DNA of 64,000 nucleotides. It comes from Actibacterium sp. 188UL27-1 (GTDB lineage: Bacteria > Pseudomonadota > Alphaproteobacteria > Rhodobacterales > Rhodobacteraceae). The notes below the pieces were generated by a model. It had not been told where the DNA came from and did not search any database. It saw only the letters and a program-made list of their open reading frames with translations. Shown piece after piece: positions 33,241-45,900 of this stretch. Every line of letters starts with the position of its first letter. Positions within the stretch are counted from its first letter, which is position 1. The translations under genes were made by a program, and so were the position numbers. The DNA lies in the NCBI RefSeq assembly GCF_016901225.1, contig NZ_JAFEUL010000014.1, forward strand, positions 1-64,000, in the 5' to 3' direction.

Positions 33241-33950
33241 CTACGATACGGCGGTTATGAACATGTCGTAAAAGCCATCCGCGACCTTGGTGCGGATATT
33301 GGCTGTAATCGCGCCGTCCATGCTATCGCAGGAGCGCTTTTTGTCCGCGACCGGTCGCTCGTTGAGGACCAGACCTGCCTCTTTCAACTCACGCTGCTTT
33401 GCCATCGTCTCTGCCGGTATCTCATCAACCAGCGCGCGGCTTTTATTGCCGAGGCCATCGTACCAGTTCAAATCGGCCATCCACAGTTCGGGCCAATAGA
33501 CATGACCGGTCAGGGAACCATATTTCTGCGCCTCACGGCACCGCTGGATCACCATGGAACTCATCACGCTTTCTGCCTATCGATCAGGCTTTGCCGGAGC
33601 GAGGAGTAGATCTCCCCCCAGGTCTGCGGCAAAGGCACCGCATCAATGGAGTGCCCGGCTTTGCGGCTATCAATCGGCGCCCGGTCATTGATGCACCTGC
33701 GGCCCCCCAGTTCCATGAAGCGCATATTGTTGATGCAGCCATCCGACCGCGTCTCAAGCTGCTCTTCGAAATAGCCGAATGCCTGGTACAGGGGGCAGTT
33801 TTCAGGCGTTGCATGCCCAATTCGGGTCGTCGTGTCCGCCAGGGCCGAAGATGCCACGACAGCGCCAAGCGCCAATCCAAGAATGGGCATGTGCTTGATG
33901 ATTTTCGCCTCCCACGGATCCGCAGCTTTGCGCGTTGTATAGGTATGCAA
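33241..33950 (-). pseudogene. TRAP transporter substrate-binding protein (DctP) pseudogene
   Basis: Two overlapping frames together cover most of a DctP. The upstream frame (33950-33564) has a signal peptide (MPILGLALGAVVASSALA), TRIGHATPENCPLYQAFGYF and later VPLPQTWGEIYSSLRQSLID. The downstream frame (33567-33241) continues REAQKYGSLTGHVYWPELW and MADLNWYDGLGNKSRALVDE. They are joined by a frameshift near 33565. An internal deletion is also evident between NNMRFMELGG and RAPIDS, because the binding-domain middle is too short. A real DctP is about 330 aa and continuous. Confidence 0.75.
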
Positions 33951-36038: not shown

Positions 36039-36782
36039 TCAGGAGAAGAGCAGGCCGCCATTGATATCCACATTCGCCCCCGTGATGTAGGAACCGTCAC
36101 TTGAGGCAAGGAACGCGACCAGATTGGCAACCTCATCCGACTGGCCTTCGCGCTTTAGTGGCGTGTTGCCGGCCACTGCGGTGCGCACTTCAGGCTTAGT
36201 GAAAACGTTGTGAAAATCGGTGTCGATCATGCCGGGGCAGACGCCGTTCACGCGGATATCGGGGGCCAGTTCCTTGGCCAGGCCACGCGTCCAGGTCAGC
36301 AACGCCCCCTTGGATGCCGCATAGACCGAGGCACCAGGACCGCCGCCATCCCGTGCTGCCTGGCTGACGATGTTGACGATTGCACCATCTGTCATGTGTT
36401 GCAGTACGGCATTTGTCAGCAGGAAAGTCGAGGTCACGTTCAGATCCATGACCGTGTTCCAATGTTCCAGCGACATTTCCGTCACCTTGACCCGGGCGAC
36501 AAGTCCGCCGGTATTATTGACCAGCACGTCGATTCCGCCGAATTCCGCTGCGGTGCGGTCCGCAAGGGCGCGGGCCTCATCAGCCTTGGTCATGTCACCC
36601 TGCATTGCGAAAGCCCGCCCACCTGCGGCCTTGATCTCGGCCACTGTCGCGTCGGCTCCGTCAGAGGATGAGAAGTAGTTGACCGCAACCGCAGCCCCGG
36701 CCGCCGCCAATTTCAGGGCGCAGGCCCGCCCGATATCGCGGCCAGCCCCGGTGACGATTGCTGTTTTGCCTTTAAGGTTCAT
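36039..36782 (-). CDS. SDR oxidoreductase, probable DEH (alginate monomer) reductase
   Basis: 247 aa classical SDR: TGAGRDIGRACALKLA, NNTGGLVARVKV, IVNIVSQAARDGGG, YAASKGALL and the ending ITGANVDINGG. GGAAAAAG lies before the ATG. It is the last gene of the alginate operon, 21 bases after the PL15 lyase. NAD(P)H-dependent SDRs in this position reduce 4-deoxy-L-erythro-5-hexoseulose uronate to 2-keto-3-deoxy-gluconate. That assignment rests on context, since KDG kinase and aldolase genes are not in the window. Confidence 0.85.
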   Translation of the reverse strand: MNLKGKTAIVTGAGRDIGRACALKLAAAGAAVAVNYFSSSDGADATVAEIKAAGGRAFAMQGDMTKADEARALADRTAAEFGGIDVLVNNTGGLVARVKVTEMSLEHWNTVMDLNVTSTFLLTNAVLQHMTDGAIVNIVSQAARDGGGPGASVYAASKGALLTWTRGLAKELAPDIRVNGVCPGMIDTDFHNVFTKPEVRTAVAGNTPLKREGQSDEVANLVAFLASSDGSYITGANVDINGGLLFS

Positions 36783-36803
36783 TCTTTTTCCTTTGGTCTC
36801 AAT

Positions 36804-39152
36804 CTAGCGGCCGACATCGAATGTCTTGGGCACGGTTACTTTGAAGGTTTGTTCGTCGGCGTCCGTGAAATACAGATCGCAGTCATATCCCTGATCATCG
36901 AGGAAGCTGAAAATTCGGCGCGGTTTATCGGCGGGGTAGGGCACCAGCAGGGTCGCGATCCGGTGGCGCAGCGCGCGCGGAAACTTGGCATGCAGACAGG
37001 TGCTGACGGGCAGGCCGTCATAGTCTGCCGGATCCACGTCCGGAAAGCCCGTGACCTGTGACAGAGTCGGCGCGCCGGCTTCCGACATCAGGACCTGGCC
37101 GTAAAAGCCCGCCTTTTCACCGGAATACCGGAAGGTCGTATCGCCCAGCTTCATCGGTGCATTGGCATGAAGCAGGAAGTCGACCTCCACCGGCTCCGTC
37201 GCGTCGACAGCGTCCACGATGACGAAATAGCTATTGCTGACGAAATAGACGTCGCGCAGCACCGAACTCACTTCTGGCGTCAGCGATTGATAGGCCGCCG
37301 TCGCATCCCCTTGAATATAAATGTGATCGCCCCGATCCTCGGCCACCGTGATCCGCCCGGTGGCGCGCATGGCCTTTGCCTTATCCTTGCCCGCATATTG
37401 GCCCTGGCCCTTGATCAGGATCGCGTTCTTGGACCGGGTCTGGCGCCGCCAGTTCTGATGCATCGAGGAGTTGAAGGCCACATAGTGACCGGACTGGATC
37501 GCGAGATCCTCTCCAAAACCTGCCAGGCAGAATGCATTCTGGTCGCCGTGGCTGTGGCTGATCGACCCGAACGGCGAGGATTTCATGACGAACTGAATAT
37601 GCGCGCCGGGGTCGTCCATCTTGTGCTGCAGCGCGACCCAGCCGATGCCCTTGAAATAGCGCAAGGTGGGCATGTCAGAGGGTGACGTGGCGGCGACCGC
37701 CCCGAAATCATGCAGGTACACCATCTCGTCAAAATTGAAATCCCACCAGCCCCAGTTGTAGAACGCCATCTCGGTCCCGGGATCGTTGCGTTTGACCTCC
37801 TCATGGTACCAGGCATAGGCACCATTGCTGGTTACCCCTGCATATTGGCGCAGGTTATAGCCGATCTTGAGGCAGGGCAGATCGCCCATCGTGCTGTCAT
37901 CGCCGAACGTGGCGCGGCGAGTATCCGGTGCTTTGGTGTAAAGTGGAAAGTCCCCGGTCTTTTGAAAGAAGGGACGCCGGTAGATATCGATCCCGCAAAA
38001 GGATTTCAGCTGGTTGGCTGCATCGATCAGATAGGCCATTCCCGTCATCCAGTAATGTGGCCCCTCAGCCCAGCCGCCATCGCTGTCACCCCAGGGAGAA
38101 TAGACGGTCGACAGGAACTCCACCGCATAATCCAACCAACCGCGCGCCTCCTCCGCTTCATCTAACAGCGCGATGGAGGCAGGGATCAGCACGGCCGAAA
38201 CCGCGCGCACGGCATGGCTGTCAAACGGAAAAAGATGAATGTTGGCATGTTTGATAATGTGGTCCGCAGTCTCCCGCGTGCGCACCAACAGTGCCTGCCG
38301 CACCGTGTCGCGCTCCTCGGGCGACATCTCATCCTGCAGCCAATCGTATCCCCAGGCGAGTGCCAGGTTCACGCGAAACGCCCATTCATCCGTATACCCG
38401 CGCGACGTTGTGCCCGCCGGATCCCAATCCGCGACGGCCAGCAACCACGCCTTGGCGCGGGCGGTCATCGCAGCGTCACCTGTGATCTGGCCGCCAATGG
38501 CCAGATGGCGGACGGCATACATGGCTTCCTGGCAATCGATGTAGGTCTGCCGCCAGATTGGCGCGACACGCTTGTGATTAGGGTAACCCCCCGGTTCGGG
38601 TATAATATCCCGATCCATCCAGGGCTTGACCGATTTGTCGTAAAAGACCTCCCAGGCGCAATGGCTGGGATCCTCGGTCACGGCTTTGGCAAAGGCGTCG
38701 CGCTTGGCCCGCGATAGCCACAGCCTGGGATGCGCCATATCGGCAGCGTCATAGCGGGTTGCGCGGTTGGCTAGGGGTGTTTCCGGCAGATCTGCGGCAA
38801 TTGTGAAGTGGCGCACCACGGACCAATCCGATTGCGGCACCCCTCGTGCATCACACACGCAATAGGACCAGTGATGCTCCCCGGCAGGTAAAACGATATC
38901 CGGCGTGAAAAAGTTCAGTGGAATCGGGCCAAAGCGTATCGTTCTGCCCGCGGGAAAACTGGCATCGGTTGAAATGCGCAAGGCATAAAGAGCCTCGCTT
39001 TCGATGACGGGTAGCCAGGAAAACCGCGGCGGGTTTTCCGTGATCTCGGTCGCCTGATCCGGCGCATACTGGATATTCAACCGCCCAGCTTTAGGCGCAT
39101 CCAGTTGGGGCAAGGCAGAGAGGGTGCCAACGGTCATCACACGTTCTTTCAT
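36804..39152 (-). CDS. Oligoalginate lyase, PL15-like (DUF4962 plus heparinase II/III)
   Basis: About 782 aa without a signal peptide, so cytoplasmic. It closely resembles Agrobacterium Atu3025, a PL15 exo-type oligoalginate lyase: ENPPRFSWLP near the start (DUF4962), then the alpha/alpha toroid with FPFDSHAVRAVSAVLIP and DGGWAEGPHYWMTGMAYLI, then the heparinase-type beta domain (SPFGSISHSHGDQNAFCLAG; HQNWRRQTRSKNAILIKG). The His of DSHAVR and Tyr of GPHYW correspond to the reported catalytic pair. It would cut imported oligomers to the unsaturated monomer. Start chosen at MKERVMTVG; ATG 39137 is an alternative. Confidence 0.9.
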   Translation of the reverse strand: MKERVMTVGTLSALPQLDAPKAGRLNIQYAPDQATEITENPPRFSWLPVIESEALYALRISTDASFPAGRTIRFGPIPLNFFTPDIVLPAGEHHWSYCVCDARGVPQSDWSVVRHFTIAADLPETPLANRATRYDAADMAHPRLWLSRAKRDAFAKAVTEDPSHCAWEVFYDKSVKPWMDRDIIPEPGGYPNHKRVAPIWRQTYIDCQEAMYAVRHLAIGGQITGDAAMTARAKAWLLAVADWDPAGTTSRGYTDEWAFRVNLALAWGYDWLQDEMSPEERDTVRQALLVRTRETADHIIKHANIHLFPFDSHAVRAVSAVLIPASIALLDEAEEARGWLDYAVEFLSTVYSPWGDSDGGWAEGPHYWMTGMAYLIDAANQLKSFCGIDIYRRPFFQKTGDFPLYTKAPDTRRATFGDDSTMGDLPCLKIGYNLRQYAGVTSNGAYAWYHEEVKRNDPGTEMAFYNWGWWDFNFDEMVYLHDFGAVAATSPSDMPTLRYFKGIGWVALQHKMDDPGAHIQFVMKSSPFGSISHSHGDQNAFCLAGFGEDLAIQSGHYVAFNSSMHQNWRRQTRSKNAILIKGQGQYAGKDKAKAMRATGRITVAEDRGDHIYIQGDATAAYQSLTPEVSSVLRDVYFVSNSYFVIVDAVDATEPVEVDFLLHANAPMKLGDTTFRYSGEKAGFYGQVLMSEAGAPTLSQVTGFPDVDPADYDGLPVSTCLHAKFPRALRHRIATLLVPYPADKPRRIFSFLDDQGYDCDLYFTDADEQTFKVTVPKTFDVGR

Positions 39153-39202
39153 GGAAAGGGGTCCGTGGGGGGCGCAGCGCACCGCGCCCCCGAAAGGCTG
39201 GA

Positions 39203-40753
39203 TTAGTTTCCGTATTGACGGGCATAGGCGGACTGCATCGCCTTGATCACTTGGCTGTAGCCCATCTTGTCGAGGGTGGCGACATAGTCGTCCCAGTCGG
39301 TTTCGATATCACCGGTGCCCAGGATCCAAGCCTGCTGACGCTCTTTCATATACGTTAGGATCGACGACCAGTACTTGTCATAGATCTTTTGTTCATCAGC
39401 ATTCATCGCAACGCCCAGGAACTGATCGATCAGGTAATCGCCTTCGTCATAAAGGGCGATGCCTTCCAGGGCGAACGCGTTCGACCACTGTTCTTCATAG
39501 GCGTAGTCTTGGTAATAGCCCCGGGCATGGAGCTGCGCACCGATCTCATAGAGTTGGGAGTTCACGGGGCGACCGTTGGTCAGGAACTCCTCGGTGAATG
39601 TGGGTTTGCCATCGACCATGGTCCACTGCTCGCCCTCGACCCCGAAATTGACCAGGTTGCGGCCTTCCTCGGTAAACCAAAAGTCGAAATACTTGATCGT
39701 CTCGACCGGATGATCGTTGGAATAACCGATGGCCCATCCGTCGGGTTTGATCGGGATGCGGCGGTGTTCTGCGATCCGCTTGCCTGAGATCGAGGCCGGA
39801 GGAGCGAACGCCTTGAACGAGAAACCCTCAACCTTGTCCGCGAGCGCAGTGTTGTAACCGGCGGTGGAGGCAAACCAGTCATGGGTCATCCCGCCCAGGT
39901 CTTCGGACAACAGGTATTCGCGTGCGGATGATCCGCGGGTAAAGACCTCCGCATCGACCAGACCTTCGGCATACCACTGGGCCAGGTTCTTCATGCCTTC
40001 GCGGTAACCTTCCTGGGCATAGGGGTGCTTGATCTGGCCGTCATCCACGAAAAAGTCGTGGTAAGTATCGGACCCGGATGAGCGACCGTCCCACAATGTC
40101 ACCAAGCGGATCAGCTCTTCCCACTGGCGGGCAAAATAGGGGATCTCGTCTTTTTTGCCGTTGCCGTTGGGGTCGTTGTCGCGGAACGCTTCCAGAACGG
40201 CCTTCACCTCCTCAACGGTTTCTGGCAGCTCTAACCCCAAGGTCTCCAGCCAGTCATAGCGGATGAAATAGGCCCGACCGTATTTCCCGTCGGGCAGATA
40301 GGGGATGTAATACAGATTGCCGTCCGAGGCCTGCAAAGCCGCCTTTACCTCGGGCCGCTCATCAAAGAATGCTTTGATGTTGGGGGCATGCTCGTCAATC
40401 AGGTCGTTCAACGGCAGGAACGCGCCTTCGGGCCCGTATTGGAACACGACATCCTTGATCCGCGAGGTGCCGACGATATCGGGCATCTTGCCCGTGGCCA
40501 GCAAAAGGTTCATCGCCTCTTCGCTGTTATCGGTGTTCGAGCCGACGGTGACATCCTTTAAGTGGATATTCGTCATCTTGCGCGCGGCCTGTTCAACCGG
40601 CCAGCTTTCATCGTAGCTGGTATAGCGCTTGTGGTGCATATGCACCGTCAGCTCCAGCGTCTCCTCCGCGATGGGCAGATGCCCCTCGGCAAAGGCGGGT
40701 ACGGTCAGGGTCGTCCCCATCAGCAGGGCCGCCGTCAGTGTCAGGTGTTTCAT
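39203..40753 (-). CDS. Alginate-oligosaccharide binding protein, AlgQ-like
   Basis: About 516 aa behind a GGGAGGAAG site, with signal peptide MKHLTLTAALLMGTTLTVPAFA. The mature protein tracks AlgQ1/AlgQ2 of Sphingomonas sp. A1 along its length: LTVHMHHKRYTSYDESWPV, DIVGTSRIKDVVFQYGPEG, LGGMTHDWFAST and PIKPDGWAIGYS. The EF-hand-like calcium loop of AlgQ is conserved as DNDPNGNGKKDEIP. It is encoded with two permeases, an ATPase and a lyase, supporting import of alginate oligomers or polymer. Confidence 0.92.
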   Translation of the reverse strand: MKHLTLTAALLMGTTLTVPAFAEGHLPIAEETLELTVHMHHKRYTSYDESWPVEQAARKMTNIHLKDVTVGSNTDNSEEAMNLLLATGKMPDIVGTSRIKDVVFQYGPEGAFLPLNDLIDEHAPNIKAFFDERPEVKAALQASDGNLYYIPYLPDGKYGRAYFIRYDWLETLGLELPETVEEVKAVLEAFRDNDPNGNGKKDEIPYFARQWEELIRLVTLWDGRSSGSDTYHDFFVDDGQIKHPYAQEGYREGMKNLAQWYAEGLVDAEVFTRGSSAREYLLSEDLGGMTHDWFASTAGYNTALADKVEGFSFKAFAPPASISGKRIAEHRRIPIKPDGWAIGYSNDHPVETIKYFDFWFTEEGRNLVNFGVEGEQWTMVDGKPTFTEEFLTNGRPVNSQLYEIGAQLHARGYYQDYAYEEQWSNAFALEGIALYDEGDYLIDQFLGVAMNADEQKIYDKYWSSILTYMKERQQAWILGTGDIETDWDDYVATLDKMGYSQVIKAMQSAYARQYGN

Positions 40754-40785
40754 GGTCTTCCTCCCTTTTTCGTGCTGGCATATCG

Positions 40786-41667
40786 TCATTCTTTGACACC
40801 CCCCAGAAGGATGCCCTTGTTGAAATATTTCTGCAGGAATGGGTAAACGAGCAGGACGGGGATGATCGAACAGACGATGATCGCGGCCGTAACGGTCTCC
40901 ACCGAATAGGTCTGGTTGATCAGCGTTGATGAAAACTCTTCATCATCCGACAAATACGCGATGGTCTGGCGCAAATAGACCTGTAGCGGGATCTTTTGTT
41001 CGTCCTGCAACAGAACCATCGCCCAGAAAAAGCCGTTCCAGCGCGAGACCAGACAGAACAAGGCAACCGTCGCAATGGCCGGTTTCGACAACGGGACGTA
41101 GACCTTCCACAGGATCTGAAACTCGCTGGCACCGTCCATACGTGCGGCTTCCTCGAAACTCTGCGGTATGTTCTCAAAGAAGTTGCGCAGCAGAATAATG
41201 TTGAACCCGTTGACCGCGAACCCGATGATGATGCCAAAATAGCTGTCCAGCAGGCCCAGATCGCGCATGTTCAGGAAAAACGGGATCATCCCCGCGTGAA
41301 ACCACATGGTGAAGGCCACCATCAGGTTCCAGAAGCGCCGCCCGTAAAGCTGTGGACGCGATAGCGCATAGGCTCCTGGGATGATGAGGATCAGGCTCAT
41401 CAGCGTGCCGCCAATCGTGTAGATGAACGTATTGCGGTACGAAATCCAGAACATCGGCTCTGACAGGACCCACCGATAGGCGTCGAGTGTCAAACCAACC
41501 GGGCCCAAAACCACATTGCCAGCCCGAGCCTCGAACCCCGCACTCATCGACAGGGATGCGATATAGATAAAGGGGTAGAGCGTTGACAGCGTGAACATCC
41601 CCACCAGGAACATGTTCAGGATGACAAAGGTTTTGTCGCCGCGGCTGTATAATCTCATATTTGCCAT
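40786..41667 (-). CDS. ABC permease, AlgM2/LplC-like
   Basis: About 293 aa with six membrane helices, starting MANMRLYSRGDKTFVI behind AAAGGGCGG; the open frame extends to 41721. The EAA loop reads EEAARMDGASEFQILWKVYVPLS and the C-terminus KYFNKGILLGGVKE is typical of the MalG/LplC family. It is the partner of the permease encoded just upstream, with a 13-base gap. Together they would form the channel for the AlgQ-like binding protein. Confidence 0.9.
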   Translation of the reverse strand: MANMRLYSRGDKTFVILNMFLVGMFTLSTLYPFIYIASLSMSAGFEARAGNVVLGPVGLTLDAYRWVLSEPMFWISYRNTFIYTIGGTLMSLILIIPGAYALSRPQLYGRRFWNLMVAFTMWFHAGMIPFFLNMRDLGLLDSYFGIIIGFAVNGFNIILLRNFFENIPQSFEEAARMDGASEFQILWKVYVPLSKPAIATVALFCLVSRWNGFFWAMVLLQDEQKIPLQVYLRQTIAYLSDDEEFSSTLINQTYSVETVTAAIIVCSIIPVLLVYPFLQKYFNKGILLGGVKE

Positions 41668-41680
41668 CGTCCGCCCTTTC

Positions 41681-42637
41681 TCACCAAAGCGATGTGCGCG
41701 AATAGCGCTTGGAGATCGCATTGGCGCTCATCACCAGAACGAAGGCGACAACCGCGTTGAACAGACCGGCGGCAGCGGCCAAGTCGTACTGCCCCCCTTG
41801 CAGGCCTTGGCGGTAGATGAAGGTGTTGACCACGTCGGCTGTTTCATAGGTGGCCGGCTGGTACAGCAGGATGATCATCTCAAAACTGACCTCCAGCATA
41901 TTGCCAATGCGGATGATCAACATGATGATGATCGTGGTCATGATCGACGGGATTGTGATCTTCCACATCATCTGCCAGCGCGAGGCCCCATCGATCACCG
42001 CACTTTCGTAAAGCGTGGGGGAAACCCCCGCGATGGCCGCCAGATAAACGATCGAAGAGAACCCGGCCTCCTGCCAGATATTCGTACCGATGAAGATCGG
42101 TCTGAACCATTCGGGTTTGGTCAGAAAGTAAACGGGATCCGCCCCGAACCATCCCAAAAACGTGTTCACCACTCCCGAGGAGGGGGAGAAGGACGCGATC
42201 ACGATCCCCGCAATGATCACGGATGATATGAAATGCGGCAGATAAACAATTGTTTGGGCGGTTTTCTTGAACGTCTGGTTCAAGATCTCGTTGAACATCA
42301 ACGCCAGCAGAATGGGCACCGGAAAGCCCACCAAAAGACTCCAGAAACTGATGACAATCGTGTTTTTTAACGCGCGTAAAAATTGGTCATTGTCGAACAG
42401 GGTCTGAAAATGTTCAAAGCCTACCCAGGGGCTGCCTGCGATGCCGCGGAAGACGCTGTAATCCTTGAACGCGATCTGCAGCCCGTACATAGGTTTGTAC
42501 AAAAACAGCAGCAGCCAGATGATCGTCGGCGCCAGCATCAGGTAAAGCTGCCAATCCCGCTTTAACGCTTCGATCACCCGCTGGGTTCGGGATGGCTGAA
42601 AGACAACCGATTGCTTGCGATCCGAGATATCCGTCAT
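41681..42637 (-). CDS. ABC permease, AlgM1/LplB-like
   Basis: 318 aa with six membrane helices after a basic cytoplasmic N-terminus (RKQSVVFQPSRTQRVIEALK). The sequence WLLLFLYKPMYGLQIAFKDY is characteristic of the LplB/YtcP subgroup, which includes AlgM1. The EAA-type loop reads YESAVIDGASRWQMMWKITIP. Its ATG overlaps the stop of the upstream ATPase gene (ATGA at 42637-42634). Confidence 0.9.
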   Translation of the reverse strand: MTDISDRKQSVVFQPSRTQRVIEALKRDWQLYLMLAPTIIWLLLFLYKPMYGLQIAFKDYSVFRGIAGSPWVGFEHFQTLFDNDQFLRALKNTIVISFWSLLVGFPVPILLALMFNEILNQTFKKTAQTIVYLPHFISSVIIAGIVIASFSPSSGVVNTFLGWFGADPVYFLTKPEWFRPIFIGTNIWQEAGFSSIVYLAAIAGVSPTLYESAVIDGASRWQMMWKITIPSIMTTIIIMLIIRIGNMLEVSFEMIILLYQPATYETADVVNTFIYRQGLQGGQYDLAAAAGLFNAVVAFVLVMSANAISKRYSRTSLW

Positions 42638-43737
42638 GCCGCGCGATCCTGTCCGCCGAGGGCCAGGCCGGTCTCTCCATCAAAGACGCGGATCAGATCC
42701 GGCTGGATGGTGAAACCGGTCACGGTCTCCAGGGATCTGACATTTCCAATGGTCTCTGCCTTGATCACAAAGGGTTCGTCGGCGAGGGAGGCATGGAGCA
42801 GTGCCTCCGATCCCAGCGTCTCGATCAGATCCATGTCGATGTTCACCTGATCGGCCGTATCCGCCGTGACCGCGGTCACATATTCCGGACGGATACCCAG
42901 AACAACCTCGGCACCGACCCGGCTTTTCAGGTCCGGCAGCGGAGCAAGCGGTAGCTTTTGCCCCCCAAAGGACGCGACCGGCCCAACCCCGTTTTCCTCG
43001 ACCACCGCGCGCACCTGGTTCATAGGCGGTGATCCCAGAAATCCGGCCACAAAGGTGTTGACCGGGTTCAGGAACAATTCCATCGGCGTGCCGATCTGTT
43101 CAATCCGGCCATCATGCATCACGACGATCCGATCAGCGAGCGTCATCGCCTCGACCTGATCATGGGTCACATAGATGCTGGTGGCGCCCAGGCGTTTGTG
43201 CAGGCGCTTGATCTCGGCCCGCATTTGGGTGCGCAGCTTGGCATCCAGGTTCGACAGAGGTTCGTCAAACAGAAACACCTTCGGATTGCGCACAATGGCG
43301 CGACCCATGGCGACCCGTTGGCGCTGACCCCCGGACAGGTCTGCGGGTCGTCGTTCCAGGTAGGGTGTCAGGCCCAGGATCTCCGCAACTTCGGTGATGC
43401 TTTCGGCAATGCGCTGTTTGGCCTCCCGGCGGATGCGCAAACCGAATGCGATGTTTTCAGCCACGTCCAGATGGGGATAAAGCGCATAGTTCTGGAAAAC
43501 CATGGCGACATCGCGGTCCTTGGGCGCCACCGCGTTCATGACTTTTCCGTCGATTGTCAGTGTCCCGCCCGAGATTTCCTCCAGCCCCGCAATCATGCGC
43601 AAGGTCGTCGACTTGCCGCATCCAGAAGGGCCGACCAGCACCACGAATTCCTGCTCGGCCACGGCGAGGTCGATACCATGGACGACTTCGACAGCGCCAT
43701 AGGCCTTGACGATGCTGTCTAGCTGAACACCGGACAT
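42634..43737 (-). CDS. ABC ATPase, AlgS/MalK-like
   Basis: 367 aa: Walker A LVGPSGCGKSTTLRMI, Q-loop VFQNYALYPH, signature DLSGGQRQRVAMGRAI, Walker B FLFDEPLSNLDAKL, H-loop IYVTHDQVEAMTLAD, then a MalK-type TOBE domain with VVLGIRPEYV. First gene of the six-gene alginate operon, reading away from the enolase-family gene across a 141-base promoter region. It powers the AlgM1/AlgM2-like permeases. Confidence 0.92.
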   Translation of the reverse strand: MSGVQLDSIVKAYGAVEVVHGIDLAVAEQEFVVLVGPSGCGKSTTLRMIAGLEEISGGTLTIDGKVMNAVAPKDRDVAMVFQNYALYPHLDVAENIAFGLRIRREAKQRIAESITEVAEILGLTPYLERRPADLSGGQRQRVAMGRAIVRNPKVFLFDEPLSNLDAKLRTQMRAEIKRLHKRLGATSIYVTHDQVEAMTLADRIVVMHDGRIEQIGTPMELFLNPVNTFVAGFLGSPPMNQVRAVVEENGVGPVASFGGQKLPLAPLPDLKSRVGAEVVLGIRPEYVTAVTADTADQVNIDMDLIETLGSEALLHASLADEPFVIKAETIGNVRSLETVTGFTIQPDLIRVFDGETGLALGGQDRAA

Positions 43738-43822
43738 ATATCCTCCCCAGTTCGATTCTGCTGACTAAGCGCCTGTGCAGAAAGGAAATCCCTGACTTTT
43801 ATCTCGCTTTTTAAAAATTGGT

Positions 43823-43832
43823 ATACTAGTAT
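43823..43832. promoter_or_regulatory. Palindromic GntR-type operator candidate
   Basis: The perfect palindrome ATACTAGTAT sits in an A/T-rich context (TTGGTATACTAGTATTAA) in the middle of the divergent promoter region between the alginate operon and the enolase-family gene. FCD-GntR regulators bind short sites with a TGGTATAC-like half. The GntR gene at 45217 is the likely regulator; this is inference. Confidence 0.5.
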
Positions 43833-43878
43833 TAAAAACGAGGCAACAGATTTCGCGCCCCCAATTGGAAGACCCTGA

Positions 43879-45129
43879 ATGAGGATCACTGACGTCAAGA
43901 TCACCCCTATCGCGGTTCCGGACGTGCCTCTTGCCAACACCAAAGGCGTGCATCAGCAGGTGTTTTTACGCGCCATACTCGAACTTACTACAGATACCGG
44001 TCTGACGGGACTGAGTGAGACCTATGGTGCAACACGAACGCTCACCGGTCTCGAAAACGTGGCGTCAACTTTGGAGGGGCTCGATCCCTATGATCTGTCT
44101 GACTTGCGGCGCCGGGTCGAAGCGGCACTACCTGATGTGGGCGGGGTCAATGGGCCAACGGCCTTGGCCGATCACAAACTGGTCGATGTGGTCTACGGCG
44201 CGTTTGAGATCGCAATGCTGGACATTCGCGGCAAGGAGGTGGGGCGACCGCTCTACGATCTGCTGGGAGGGGCTGTTCGAAAACAGATCCGCTTTGGCGG
44301 CTACCTCTTTTACAAATTTGCCAAGCAGGACCTCACTTTTGGCCCGGATATCATGGGTGAGGTCATGACACCGGATGCGCTGGTGGGGCAGGCCAGAGAC
44401 TTTTCGGACCGGTACGGATTTCAGTCCTGGAAGCTCAAAGGCGGTGTGCTTGACCCCGATCTAGAGGTCGAGACCATGCTGAAACTGCGGGAGGCTTTCC
44501 CGGACCATCCCCTCCGCATCGACCCGATGGGCGCCTGGACTGTGTCCACCGCAAAGCGGGTCGTGACGCAGCTGGATGGCGTGCTGGAATACCTCGAAGA
44601 TCCGTGCCGTGGCATGGAGGCCATGGCCGCGCTTTCGGCGCAGATCGATATGCCGCTGGCGACCAATCTGGTGGTCGTGGAGTTCGAGCAGATTATTCAG
44701 GCCGTCAAGGCAGACGCCATCCAGATTATCCTGTCCGATCACCATTATTGGCGTGGGGCGACGGGGGCGATCCAGTTGGGCGCGATGTGCCGGGCGGCAG
44801 GGCTCGGCGTGTCCATGCATTCAAACTCGCATCTGGGCATCTCGCTCGCGGCCATGTGCCATGTCGCAGCGGCCACGCCCAATCTGACCTATGACTGCGA
44901 CACGCATTATCCCTGGTCGACCAAGGACATCGTAACGGGCGGGCGTCCGCAATTCCAAGACGGCGCCTTGCCTGTTCCCGATGGTCCAGGCCTGGGGGTG
45001 GAGCTTGACCATGGGGCAGTGGCCGACCTACATGATCTGTACAATCAAGCTATGGTTGTGGATCGCGATGACACGGATGAAATGTTGAAATACATTCCCG
45101 ATTATGTCCGCAAGGTCCCCCGATGGTAG
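43879..45129 (+). CDS. Enolase-superfamily dehydratase, glucarate-dehydratase-like
   Basis: 416 aa of the mandelate racemase/muconate lactonizing group. Catalytic and metal residues match the glucarate dehydratase subgroup: KxK at K185-L-K187, metal ligands D215 (RIDPMGAW), E240 (LEDPC) and N263 (ATNLV) or D287 (LSDHHYW), and the His of MHSNSHLGIS (H314) with D287. The expected reaction is dehydration of an acid sugar to a 2-keto-3-deoxy acid. Divergent from the alginate operon and followed by a GntR gene, so the substrate may be a uronate-derived aldarate or aldonate. Confidence 0.85.
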   Translation: MRITDVKITPIAVPDVPLANTKGVHQQVFLRAILELTTDTGLTGLSETYGATRTLTGLENVASTLEGLDPYDLSDLRRRVEAALPDVGGVNGPTALADHKLVDVVYGAFEIAMLDIRGKEVGRPLYDLLGGAVRKQIRFGGYLFYKFAKQDLTFGPDIMGEVMTPDALVGQARDFSDRYGFQSWKLKGGVLDPDLEVETMLKLREAFPDHPLRIDPMGAWTVSTAKRVVTQLDGVLEYLEDPCRGMEAMAALSAQIDMPLATNLVVVEFEQIIQAVKADAIQIILSDHHYWRGATGAIQLGAMCRAAGLGVSMHSNSHLGISLAAMCHVAAATPNLTYDCDTHYPWSTKDIVTGGRPQFQDGALPVPDGPGLGVELDHGAVADLHDLYNQAMVVDRDDTDEMLKYIPDYVRKVPRW

Positions 45130-45216
45130 GTCGTACCCAGATGTATAAAAGATGGCCCGGCTTGCCGAAATCTGGCCATATCTTTGGAACTGTGCGTGTA
45201 ATCAAGGTTGGATGAT

Positions 45217-45900
45217 ATGGCACCGATAACCCAAGTCAGAGAACGCCGGACCAGTGTCGACGTGATATTCGACCACCTTTATGATGCGATCGTGTCCTTG
45301 CAACTGCTGCCCGGTGACAAGATCTCAGAGGCGGAGGTCGCGTCGCAGTTCAACGTTTCCCGCCAGCCCGTTCGCGATGCGTTCAGTCGGTTGGAGAACC
45401 TCGACCTTTTGCTGATCCGGCCCCAGCGGGCGACCGAGGTTAAGCGGTTTTCATCCAGGGAAATCACCAAGTCCCGGTTCGTGCGCGCCGCCGTCGAGGC
45501 CGAGGTTTTGCGGCGTGCTGCGCGGGCCTGCGACGCGGCGGGTGTGGCGCTGATGCAGGCGGCGCTGGCGCAGCAGAAGCTGGCGGTCGAGGCCCCCGAT
45601 TATGAACGGTTCGGCGCGCTGGATTATGAGTTTCACCGCACCCTGTGCCAGGTCGCGCAGGTGGATTTCGCGTTCGAGGTGATCTCCTCCGAAAAGGCGA
45701 ATGTTGATCGGTTGTGCCTGCTGAGCCTGTCCAAGGAGGACCGGATGGAGCAACTGCTTGAAGATCATACGGAAATCAGTCGCTGCATTCAAAACCACGA
45801 TGAAGACGGCGCGGTTACCGCGGGTATGCTGCATCTATCGCGGCTGGATTCGACGATCGAGGCGATCTCGACCCTTAACCCCAACTATTTTGATCCGTAA
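45217..45900 (+). CDS. GntR-family (FCD) transcriptional regulator
   Basis: About 227 aa starting MAPITQVRERRTSVDVI; the frame also offers TTG at 45208, but ATG 45217 has better spacing from GGTTGGA. Winged-helix domain: IVSLQLLPGDKISEAEVASQ and FNVSRQPVRDAFSRLENLDL. The C-terminal FCD domain has metal-type residues (DYEFHRTLCQ, DHTEISRCI). It lies 87 bases after the dehydratase gene and likely controls it and the divergent alginate operon through ATACTAGTAT. Confidence 0.88.
   Translation: MAPITQVRERRTSVDVIFDHLYDAIVSLQLLPGDKISEAEVASQFNVSRQPVRDAFSRLENLDLLLIRPQRATEVKRFSSREITKSRFVRAAVEAEVLRRAARACDAAGVALMQAALAQQKLAVEAPDYERFGALDYEFHRTLCQVAQVDFAFEVISSEKANVDRLCLLSLSKEDRMEQLLEDHTEISRCIQNHDEDGAVTAGMLHLSRLDSTIEAISTLNPNYFDP

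Follow-up and report, generated by a model that had tools for sequence, protein, structure and literature searches.

The closest described counterparts of the putative alginate locus that we analyzed in Actibacterium sp. 188UL27-1 (contig NZ_JAFEUL010000014.1, positions 1 to 64,000; this entire 64,000-nucleotide (nt) stretch is hereafter the window) are found in Falsirhodobacter, Agrobacterium, and Sphingomonas. Published work is cited by PubMed Central identifier. In Falsirhodobacter sp. alg1, lyases of polysaccharide lyase families 7 and 15 (PL7 and PL15) have been characterized; the alyFRB operon encodes an ATPase, permease(s), a binding protein, PL15, and a DehR-like reductase, with the endo-type lyase gene alyFRA and KdgK-like and aldolase genes located elsewhere (PMC4866713). 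The Atu3025 cluster of Agrobacterium fabrum, source of the closest solved PL15, is reported to share its gene order with Falsirhodobacter (PMC4866713). Sphingomonas sp. A1 combines the pit/ABC (ATP-binding cassette) system AlgQ1/Q2-AlgM1M2SS with the PL15 lyase A1-IV, uses the regulator AlgO, and has endolyases that act on imported alginate. Regulation by a GntR repressor is described for AusR of Zobellia galactanivorans, which acts at alginate promoters carrying one to three operator copies (PMC7874173, PMC8286568).

Like this system, the Actibacterium locus has an ABC transporter and a PL15 lyase, and its binding protein is homologous to that of Sphingomonas. Unlike Sphingomonas sp. A1, its operon has one AlgQ, and the genome encodes a lyase bearing repeats-in-toxin (RTX) sequences and no PF05426 gene. 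Compared with Falsirhodobacter, we additionally find a GntR regulator, an operon for a KdgF-like cupin and a tripartite ATP-independent periplasmic (TRAP) transporter, and a predicted common motif; the excerpts of PMC4866713 mention no enolase-type gene, operator, or regulon. Given this precedent and the mostly identical gene order in relatives lacking the enolase-superfamily gene (here called ENO), the core of the locus is already known. The new parts are ENO and a DNA motif, present also before a distant PL7-type gene, that connects this gene with ENO. Judged from sequence, the locus is probably (at roughly 80%, a figure that excludes the ENO substrate) the core of an alginate regulon in a Rhodobacteraceae-type bacterium; Falsirhodobacter likewise belongs to the Rhodobacteraceae.

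An earlier note on this DNA had proposed eight genes for alginate-oligomer import and degradation, and all eight were recovered in place. The PL15 protein matched Atu3025 (3a0o, deposited as "Oligo alginate lyase") with 1080 bits over residues 22-788 and is thus full-length. Its H323 and Y377 align with the catalytic His and Tyr of Atu3025, H311 and Y365 (PMC11921355, Table 1), in agreement with the proposed PL15-like lyase. PL39, considered on account of a DUF4962 domain, was ruled out, as the PL39 chains 6jpn (so named in PMC8286568), 6jp4, and 6jph reached 25-27 bits versus 1080. The binding protein scored 555-567 bits against AlgQ1/AlgQ2 chains, compared with 376 for the next solved family, and its Ca-type loop DNDPNGNGKKDE begins at residue 204, confirming an AlgQ-like protein with a Ca loop. 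NCBIfam models returned no name for this protein or for PL15. The AlgS-like ATPase exceeded the UgpC cut-off (481 versus 432 bits), and two permeases and one ATPase lie within the operon, the set expected of an AlgQ-type importer; ABC import of alginate oligomers is a sequence-supported prediction. The short-chain dehydrogenase/reductase (SDR) contains an adh_short_C2 domain and a Tyr-x-x-x-Lys motif (YAASK at residue 154). Among solved structures it is closest to 4yqy (356 bits) and then 3edm (269 bits), named only as putative or short-chain dehydrogenases, with no substrate listed; chains named as reductases of 4-deoxy-L-erythro-5-hexoseulose uronate (DEH), 4tkl and 4w7i, score just 139-141 bits. 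The SDR assignment of the earlier note is thus sound, while the likely role as DEH reductase comes from operon position.

ENO is tied to this type of locus in one clade. A scan over contigs of 84,980 species, covering close relatives, returned 67 ENO relatives, which were placed in a tree with the window ENO, GudD, and GudX; none was dropped. Thirty loci (L numbers denote loci) group with the window ENO at a branch support of 100/100 and belong to Paracoccaceae, Roseobacteraceae, Granulosicoccaceae, Geminicoccaceae, one Cohaesibacteraceae, and one Rhizobiaceae. Where the flank on the AlgS side is 9 kb or longer, clade loci contain all four ABC genes in 23 of 25 cases and a PL15 match likewise in 23 of 25, versus 0/28 and 0/28 for the other relatives. 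As exceptions, PL15 is partial in L021, the flank of L003 ends before PL15, and L027 has neither. L021 (Halovulum marinum) retains SDR, partial PL15, and ENO without a full AlgSMQ set, and has distant ABC ATPases downstream of ENO. Outside the alginate clade, ENO relatives (L036, L041, L045, and others) frequently neighbor another enolase-superfamily-like gene; several of those from Alphaproteobacteria lie beside two paired, distant ABC ATPase genes.

In a sample of 394 genomes of the family, PL15 occurs in 44 and ENO (65% identity or higher) in 12, all of them among the 44 and with both genes on the same contig. Five further ENO matches at 48-50% lie away from PL15 loci, although G057, a genome with one of them, carries PL15 on a different contig. 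A class-wide sample (ENO 3/385, PL15 2/385, the window genome in both) was too sparse for a cross-table, and its other two ENO matches are 49% identical and retain the Asn237 discussed below.

Thirty of the 32 ENO-negative PL15 loci were read, leaving out G278 and G013, whose PL15 matches are partial. Gene order is mostly that of the window, with a GntR regulator of the window type in 25, a KdgF-like gene in 23, and a beta-hydroxyacid-dehydrogenase-like gene in 12. ENO is not a stand-in for KdgF, as a KdgF-like gene is present in 14/23 ENO-positive and 23/30 ENO-negative loci. No substitute enzyme common to ENO-negative loci was found in the gaps of seven loci, where genes were named by eye. 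These gaps hold transporters of major facilitator superfamily-like and multidrug and toxic compound extrusion (MATE)-like type, GntR regulators, and RraA-like genes, together with single-locus gluconolactonase-like (L153) and amidohydrolase-like plus KduI-like (L160) genes. The MATE-like transporter (by eye; L131:10597-11973 and related) has matches in 31 of 59 alginate loci and might serve to expel a toxic intermediate, for example DEH. The KduI-like gene (by eye; L160:5765-6637, minus strand) is part of a divergent PL15 locus (43% identity, in G371), which may therefore serve a different uronide.

At the residue level, ENO combines MR_MLE domains with a predicted GlucD-like fold (mean pLDDT 93.2), and resembles Escherichia coli GudD at a Foldseek TM-score by query length of 0.90-0.95 and 30-31% identity. 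Its nearest solved enzymes, MSMEG_6132 and Tbis_1083, were named "enolase" or "probable glucarate dehydratase" by their depositors. The glucarate dehydratase model TIGR03247 gave 239.4 bits against a curated cut-off of 828.7, and by this NCBIfam criterion ENO is no glucarate dehydratase; the window genome contains no canonical glucarate dehydratase above the cut-off. In the GudD alignment, the equivalents of K205, K207, D235, N289, D313, H339, and N341 are present in 30/30 clade loci. The catalytic list for GudD comprises K205, K207, N237, and H339 (PMC4922564, Table 3). Of these, Asn237 is lost: the window ENO and 28/30 clade loci, including all 12 ENOs of the family sample, have Met there, versus Asn in 37/37 other relatives. 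The T103 position is Leu in the window ENO and 28/30 clade loci, and the P34 position, Gln in the window ENO, is Pro in 4/30 clade loci versus 36/37 others. The segment with Glu266 is missing from ENO and from all 37 other relatives. The earlier description of ENO as glucarate-dehydratase-like thus holds for its nearest named relatives and fails at the catalytic Asn and the family cut-off. The two clade loci with Asn237, L024 and L027, branch first. Since L024 keeps Asn and already has a PL15 locus, the change to Met probably followed the link to PL15 loci.

In glucarate dehydratase, Arg422 interacts with the distal carboxylate of the substrate glucarate. Mannuronate is the C5 epimer of guluronate. 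Active sites of the GlucD type have bases on both faces, and a dehydratase taking H5 and the 4-OH would thus yield DEH from either uronate. Our leading proposal, which holds the largest single share but is tentative, is that ENO removes water from free mannuronate and guluronate to form DEH. As part of it, and equally provisionally, ENO could represent a new, lyase-independent activity of alginate catabolism, converting both C5 epimers to DEH (or to the 4,5-unsaturated ring form of DEH), and might be an accessory of PL15/ABC loci common to Alpha- and Gammaproteobacteria. Saturated M and G monomers are reported among the products of exolytic lyases (PMC5809466), and a review gives the DEH route for alginate uronates (PMC6353982). 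The reference list of that review includes a thesis titled for enolase-superfamily galacturonate dehydratases, a precedent for the chemistry. In titles and abstract openings of the open-licence literature, we found no enolase-superfamily enzyme tied to a PL15 locus, which does not prove absence from print, and "glucarate dehydratase" had 0 occurrences among the matches listed.

Several observations weigh against this proposal. Saturated monomers should be a scarce, minor product. At the 65% threshold, ENO is missing from 32/44 PL15 genomes, marking it as a dispensable accessory. Arg422 is retained in 30/30 clade loci, hinting at a diacid substrate. The last point would suit a hexarate dehydratase of an oxidative side route, whereby guluronate is oxidized at C1 to L-gularate (equal to D-glucarate) and dehydrated to 5-keto-4-deoxy-glucarate. 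The closest named relatives of ENO are glucarate dehydratases, and RraA-like genes assigned by eye (L024:1174-1893, minus; L143:13333-14076, minus; L153:4589-5305, plus) recall FlDet, an RraA-family protein that uses such compounds in Flavobacterium (PMC8563752). We consider this route unlikely, as Asn237 is replaced by Met in nearly the entire clade, ENO scores 239 bits with the glucarate dehydratase model against a cut-off of 829, and the locus genes, to which the search was confined, include no uronate dehydrogenase or RraA-like gene; moreover, L024, which has an RraA-like gene, still has Asn237. Somewhat more doubtful is an epimerase or isomerase of free mannuronate-guluronate or a related 4-deoxy acid, in which loss of Asn237 ended dehydration. 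Retention of both bases with loss of the catalytic Asn would fit, and glucarate dehydratase also epimerizes its own substrate, but the conserved neighborhood lacks a recognized downstream enzyme for a saturated monouronate.

The second new element is the palindrome ATACTAGTAT, which occurs once in the window (43823-43832; 0.07 matches expected at up to one mismatch). The earlier note had placed it between ENO and the GntR gene; the site is present, but in the divergent AlgS-ENO promoter. We examined the 320 bp upstream of AlgS in 56 loci (59 minus L019, L144, and L160, which have no 60% AlgS match; the L021 match is a short piece, and its stretch may be misplaced). The palindrome was found at up to one mismatch in 42 of the 56 stretches, compared with 0-2 in 20 shuffles that preserved base composition only. 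It accompanies the regulator, occurring in 39/43 loci with a window-type GntR (at least 48% identity) and 3/13 loci without, and this conservation backs the pairing of GntR protein and palindrome. A position weight matrix was built from the 43 stretches having a window-type GntR, with distant sites of the window genome unused; the longer motif has a shape close to TGGTATACTAGTATACCA. The top score in the window is 24.5, at 43817-43838, for a site that is itself among the matrix inputs, and the next non-overlapping score is 6.0. From this pattern, ATACTAGTAT looks like a genuine GntR operator. Three loci carry paired sites 20 bp apart upstream of AlgS (L136:7684/7704, L150:7464/7484, and L149:11285/11305), and several others, mostly motif-free, have a second GntR/FCD type (L022:9029-9886, minus) between AlgS and ENO.

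We searched the window genome (4.69 Mb, 99.88% complete) with the 14-base pattern TGGTATACTAGTAT. At up to two mismatches, seven places match (C numbers denote contigs): the locus without any mismatch, C14:18536 with one, and five others with two. Outside the locus, two of these six places precede alginate-type genes. One lies 15 nt before an operon, away from the locus, that encodes the KdgF-like cupin followed by the TRAP genes DctP, DctQ, and DctM (matrix score 14.1); the other lies 69 nt before the start of a PL7-type lyase gene (13.2). A further site, with 3 mismatches and a score of 11.3, is 12 nt before a KdgK-like gene. Related loci support the TRAP assignment independently. DctP and DctM are present in 10/59 loci, one of which, L009, was set aside as distant (31% and 39%). 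In the remaining nine, TRAP orthologs (DctP 55-61%) adjoin the locus. Seven of them show a site, with scores of 14.2-22.7, in the roughly 310 bp preceding the DctP match; L157 has only one of 8.8, and L143, lacking a window-type GntR, none. For PL7-type genes of other genomes (four of 12 PF08787 matches outside the window genome were examined), a site precedes two (18.4 and 22.2). A scattered regulon is thus predicted, covering the locus, the PL7-type gene, the KdgF-like/TRAP operon, and, more weakly, the KdgK-like gene.

Other results temper this prediction. At up to three mismatches, the genome contains 32 matches to TGGTATACTAGTAT versus 250 for a reversed-pattern control, so that placement, and not number, is the evidence. 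No recognizable alginate gene follows four of the seven best places; of these four, each with 2 mismatches, three score 0.8, 3.7, and 5.4, and the fourth is not among the top four sites of its stretch. Weakest of the proposed regulon sites is that of KdgK, as its 11.3 barely differs from the 11.1 of another site on C51. Two of the four PL7-type genes in other genomes have no site. FadR-type GntR proteins have similar sites, and another regulator could therefore bind some of the motif places.

The wider gene content alters the ecological interpretation. The window genome has a PF08787 (PL7/PL18 model) gene, at C54:72885-73703, whose 506-residue product consists of a lyase domain and RTX repeats. 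The repeats suggest type I secretion, and an endolytic mode of action is presumed from the family. PF14592 (PL6) and PF05426 (PL5/PL17) had 0 matches in the window genome, other lyase families not being sought. An Eda-type aldolase on C12 is above its cut-off, while the KdgK-like kinase on C51 falls below (225 versus 400 bits); its label draws partly on similar genes in 11/30 ENO-negative and 3/23 ENO-positive alginate loci. These are outcomes of the genome searches that the earlier note had called for, namely PL6, PL7, and PL18 lyases and the kinase and aldolase of 2-keto-3-deoxygluconate (KDG). The KdgF-like label denotes a cupin (Cupin_2) 62-67% identical to cupins in the alginate loci L016, L136, L137, and L157. 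As this cupin's TRAP operon bears the same motif, the earlier contrast of ABC import with symporters was too sharp.

The same note had found no secreted endolytic lyase, a statement that applies to the window and not to the genome as a whole, and had taken the organism for a scavenger of oligomers set free by others. Some relatives may indeed live in this manner, since 34/44 PL15 genomes of the family sample have no PF08787 match at E 1e-10 (10 of the 11 genomes with PF08787 also have PL15). For Actibacterium, scavenging is now very unlikely, as the PL7-type RTX lyase, with the motif upstream, predicts that it cuts alginate itself. Least probable of all is that the whole locus serves another polyuronate (e.g., glycosaminoglycan or ulvan fragments) with alginate transferred by similarity: its proteins have recognizable relatives among heparinase II/III-like proteins and another binding protein family, some of which act on other uronides, and the AlgQ Ca loop cannot by itself separate alginate from these, but alginate-specific proteins give much higher scores for the lyase as well as the binding protein, the alginate lyase gene of the genome bears the motif, and Falsirhodobacter provides a precedent.

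The proposed alginate regulon would operate as follows. The PL7-type RTX lyase, encoded away from the locus, would be secreted and cut alginate. Once in the periplasm, oligomers would be captured by the AlgQ-like protein and taken up by the ABC transporter, after which PL15 would split them in the cytoplasm into unsaturated monomers. The KdgF-like cupin and the SDR could convert these to DEH and KDG, and the KdgK-like kinase and Eda would complete the route. The TRAP transporter beside the cupin may import monouronates. ENO might take water (C5-H and C4-OH) from saturated M/G chain-end monomers, which would join the pathway as DEH. Acting at TGGTATACTAGTATACCA-type sites, the GntR protein would govern the divergent AlgS-ENO promoter as well as the operons dispersed in the genome.

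The features of the locus are compiled in Table 1. From AlgS to SDR, the minus-strand genes overlap by 4, 41, and 4 nt and are then separated by 20 and 21 nt; AlgS, both permeases, AlgQ-like protein, PL15, and SDR likely form a single operon. The divergent gap between AlgS and ENO is 141 nt, and ENO and GntR are 78 nt apart. Beyond the SDR, a short open reading frame (33564-33950, minus) resembles by eye the beginning of a TRAP binding protein of DctP type and is possibly a broken gene.

Table 1. Predicted features of the alginate locus, in window coordinates.
Feature	Coordinates	Strand	Remarks
SDR oxidoreductase, probable DEH reductase (DehR-like)	36039..36782	-	adh_short_C2; beside PL15 in relatives too
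PL15 oligoalginate lyase (Atu3025-like)	36804..39182	-	1080 bits to Atu3025; H323, Y377
AlgQ-like periplasmic alginate-oligosaccharide binding protein	39203..40789	-	AlgQ1/AlgQ2 similarity, Ca-type loop
ABC permease, AlgM2-like (label by position only)	40786..41721	-	BPD_transp_1
ABC permease, AlgM1-like (label by position only)	41681..42637	-	BPD_transp_1
ABC ATPase, UgpC/MalK type (AlgS-like)	42634..43737	-	ABC_tran + OB_MalK
Predicted GntR operator	43817..43838	.	core ATACTAGTAT at 43823-43832; top matrix site of window
ENO, enolase-superfamily enzyme of alginate-linked clade	43879..45129	+	MR_MLE domains
GntR/FCD regulator, predicted operator binder	45208..45900	+	GntR + FCD domains

Alginate is a major brown-algal polymer, and PL15 is carried by 44 of the 394 family genomes. 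The motif ties scattered genes into a single testable regulon and corrects the scavenger reading. Within a well-studied pathway, ENO is a conserved enzyme marked by a clear signature (Met in place of Asn237), and it offers a direct handle on the use of saturated mannuronate and guluronate. If the proposal is true, ENO would provide a route for saturated alginate monomers.

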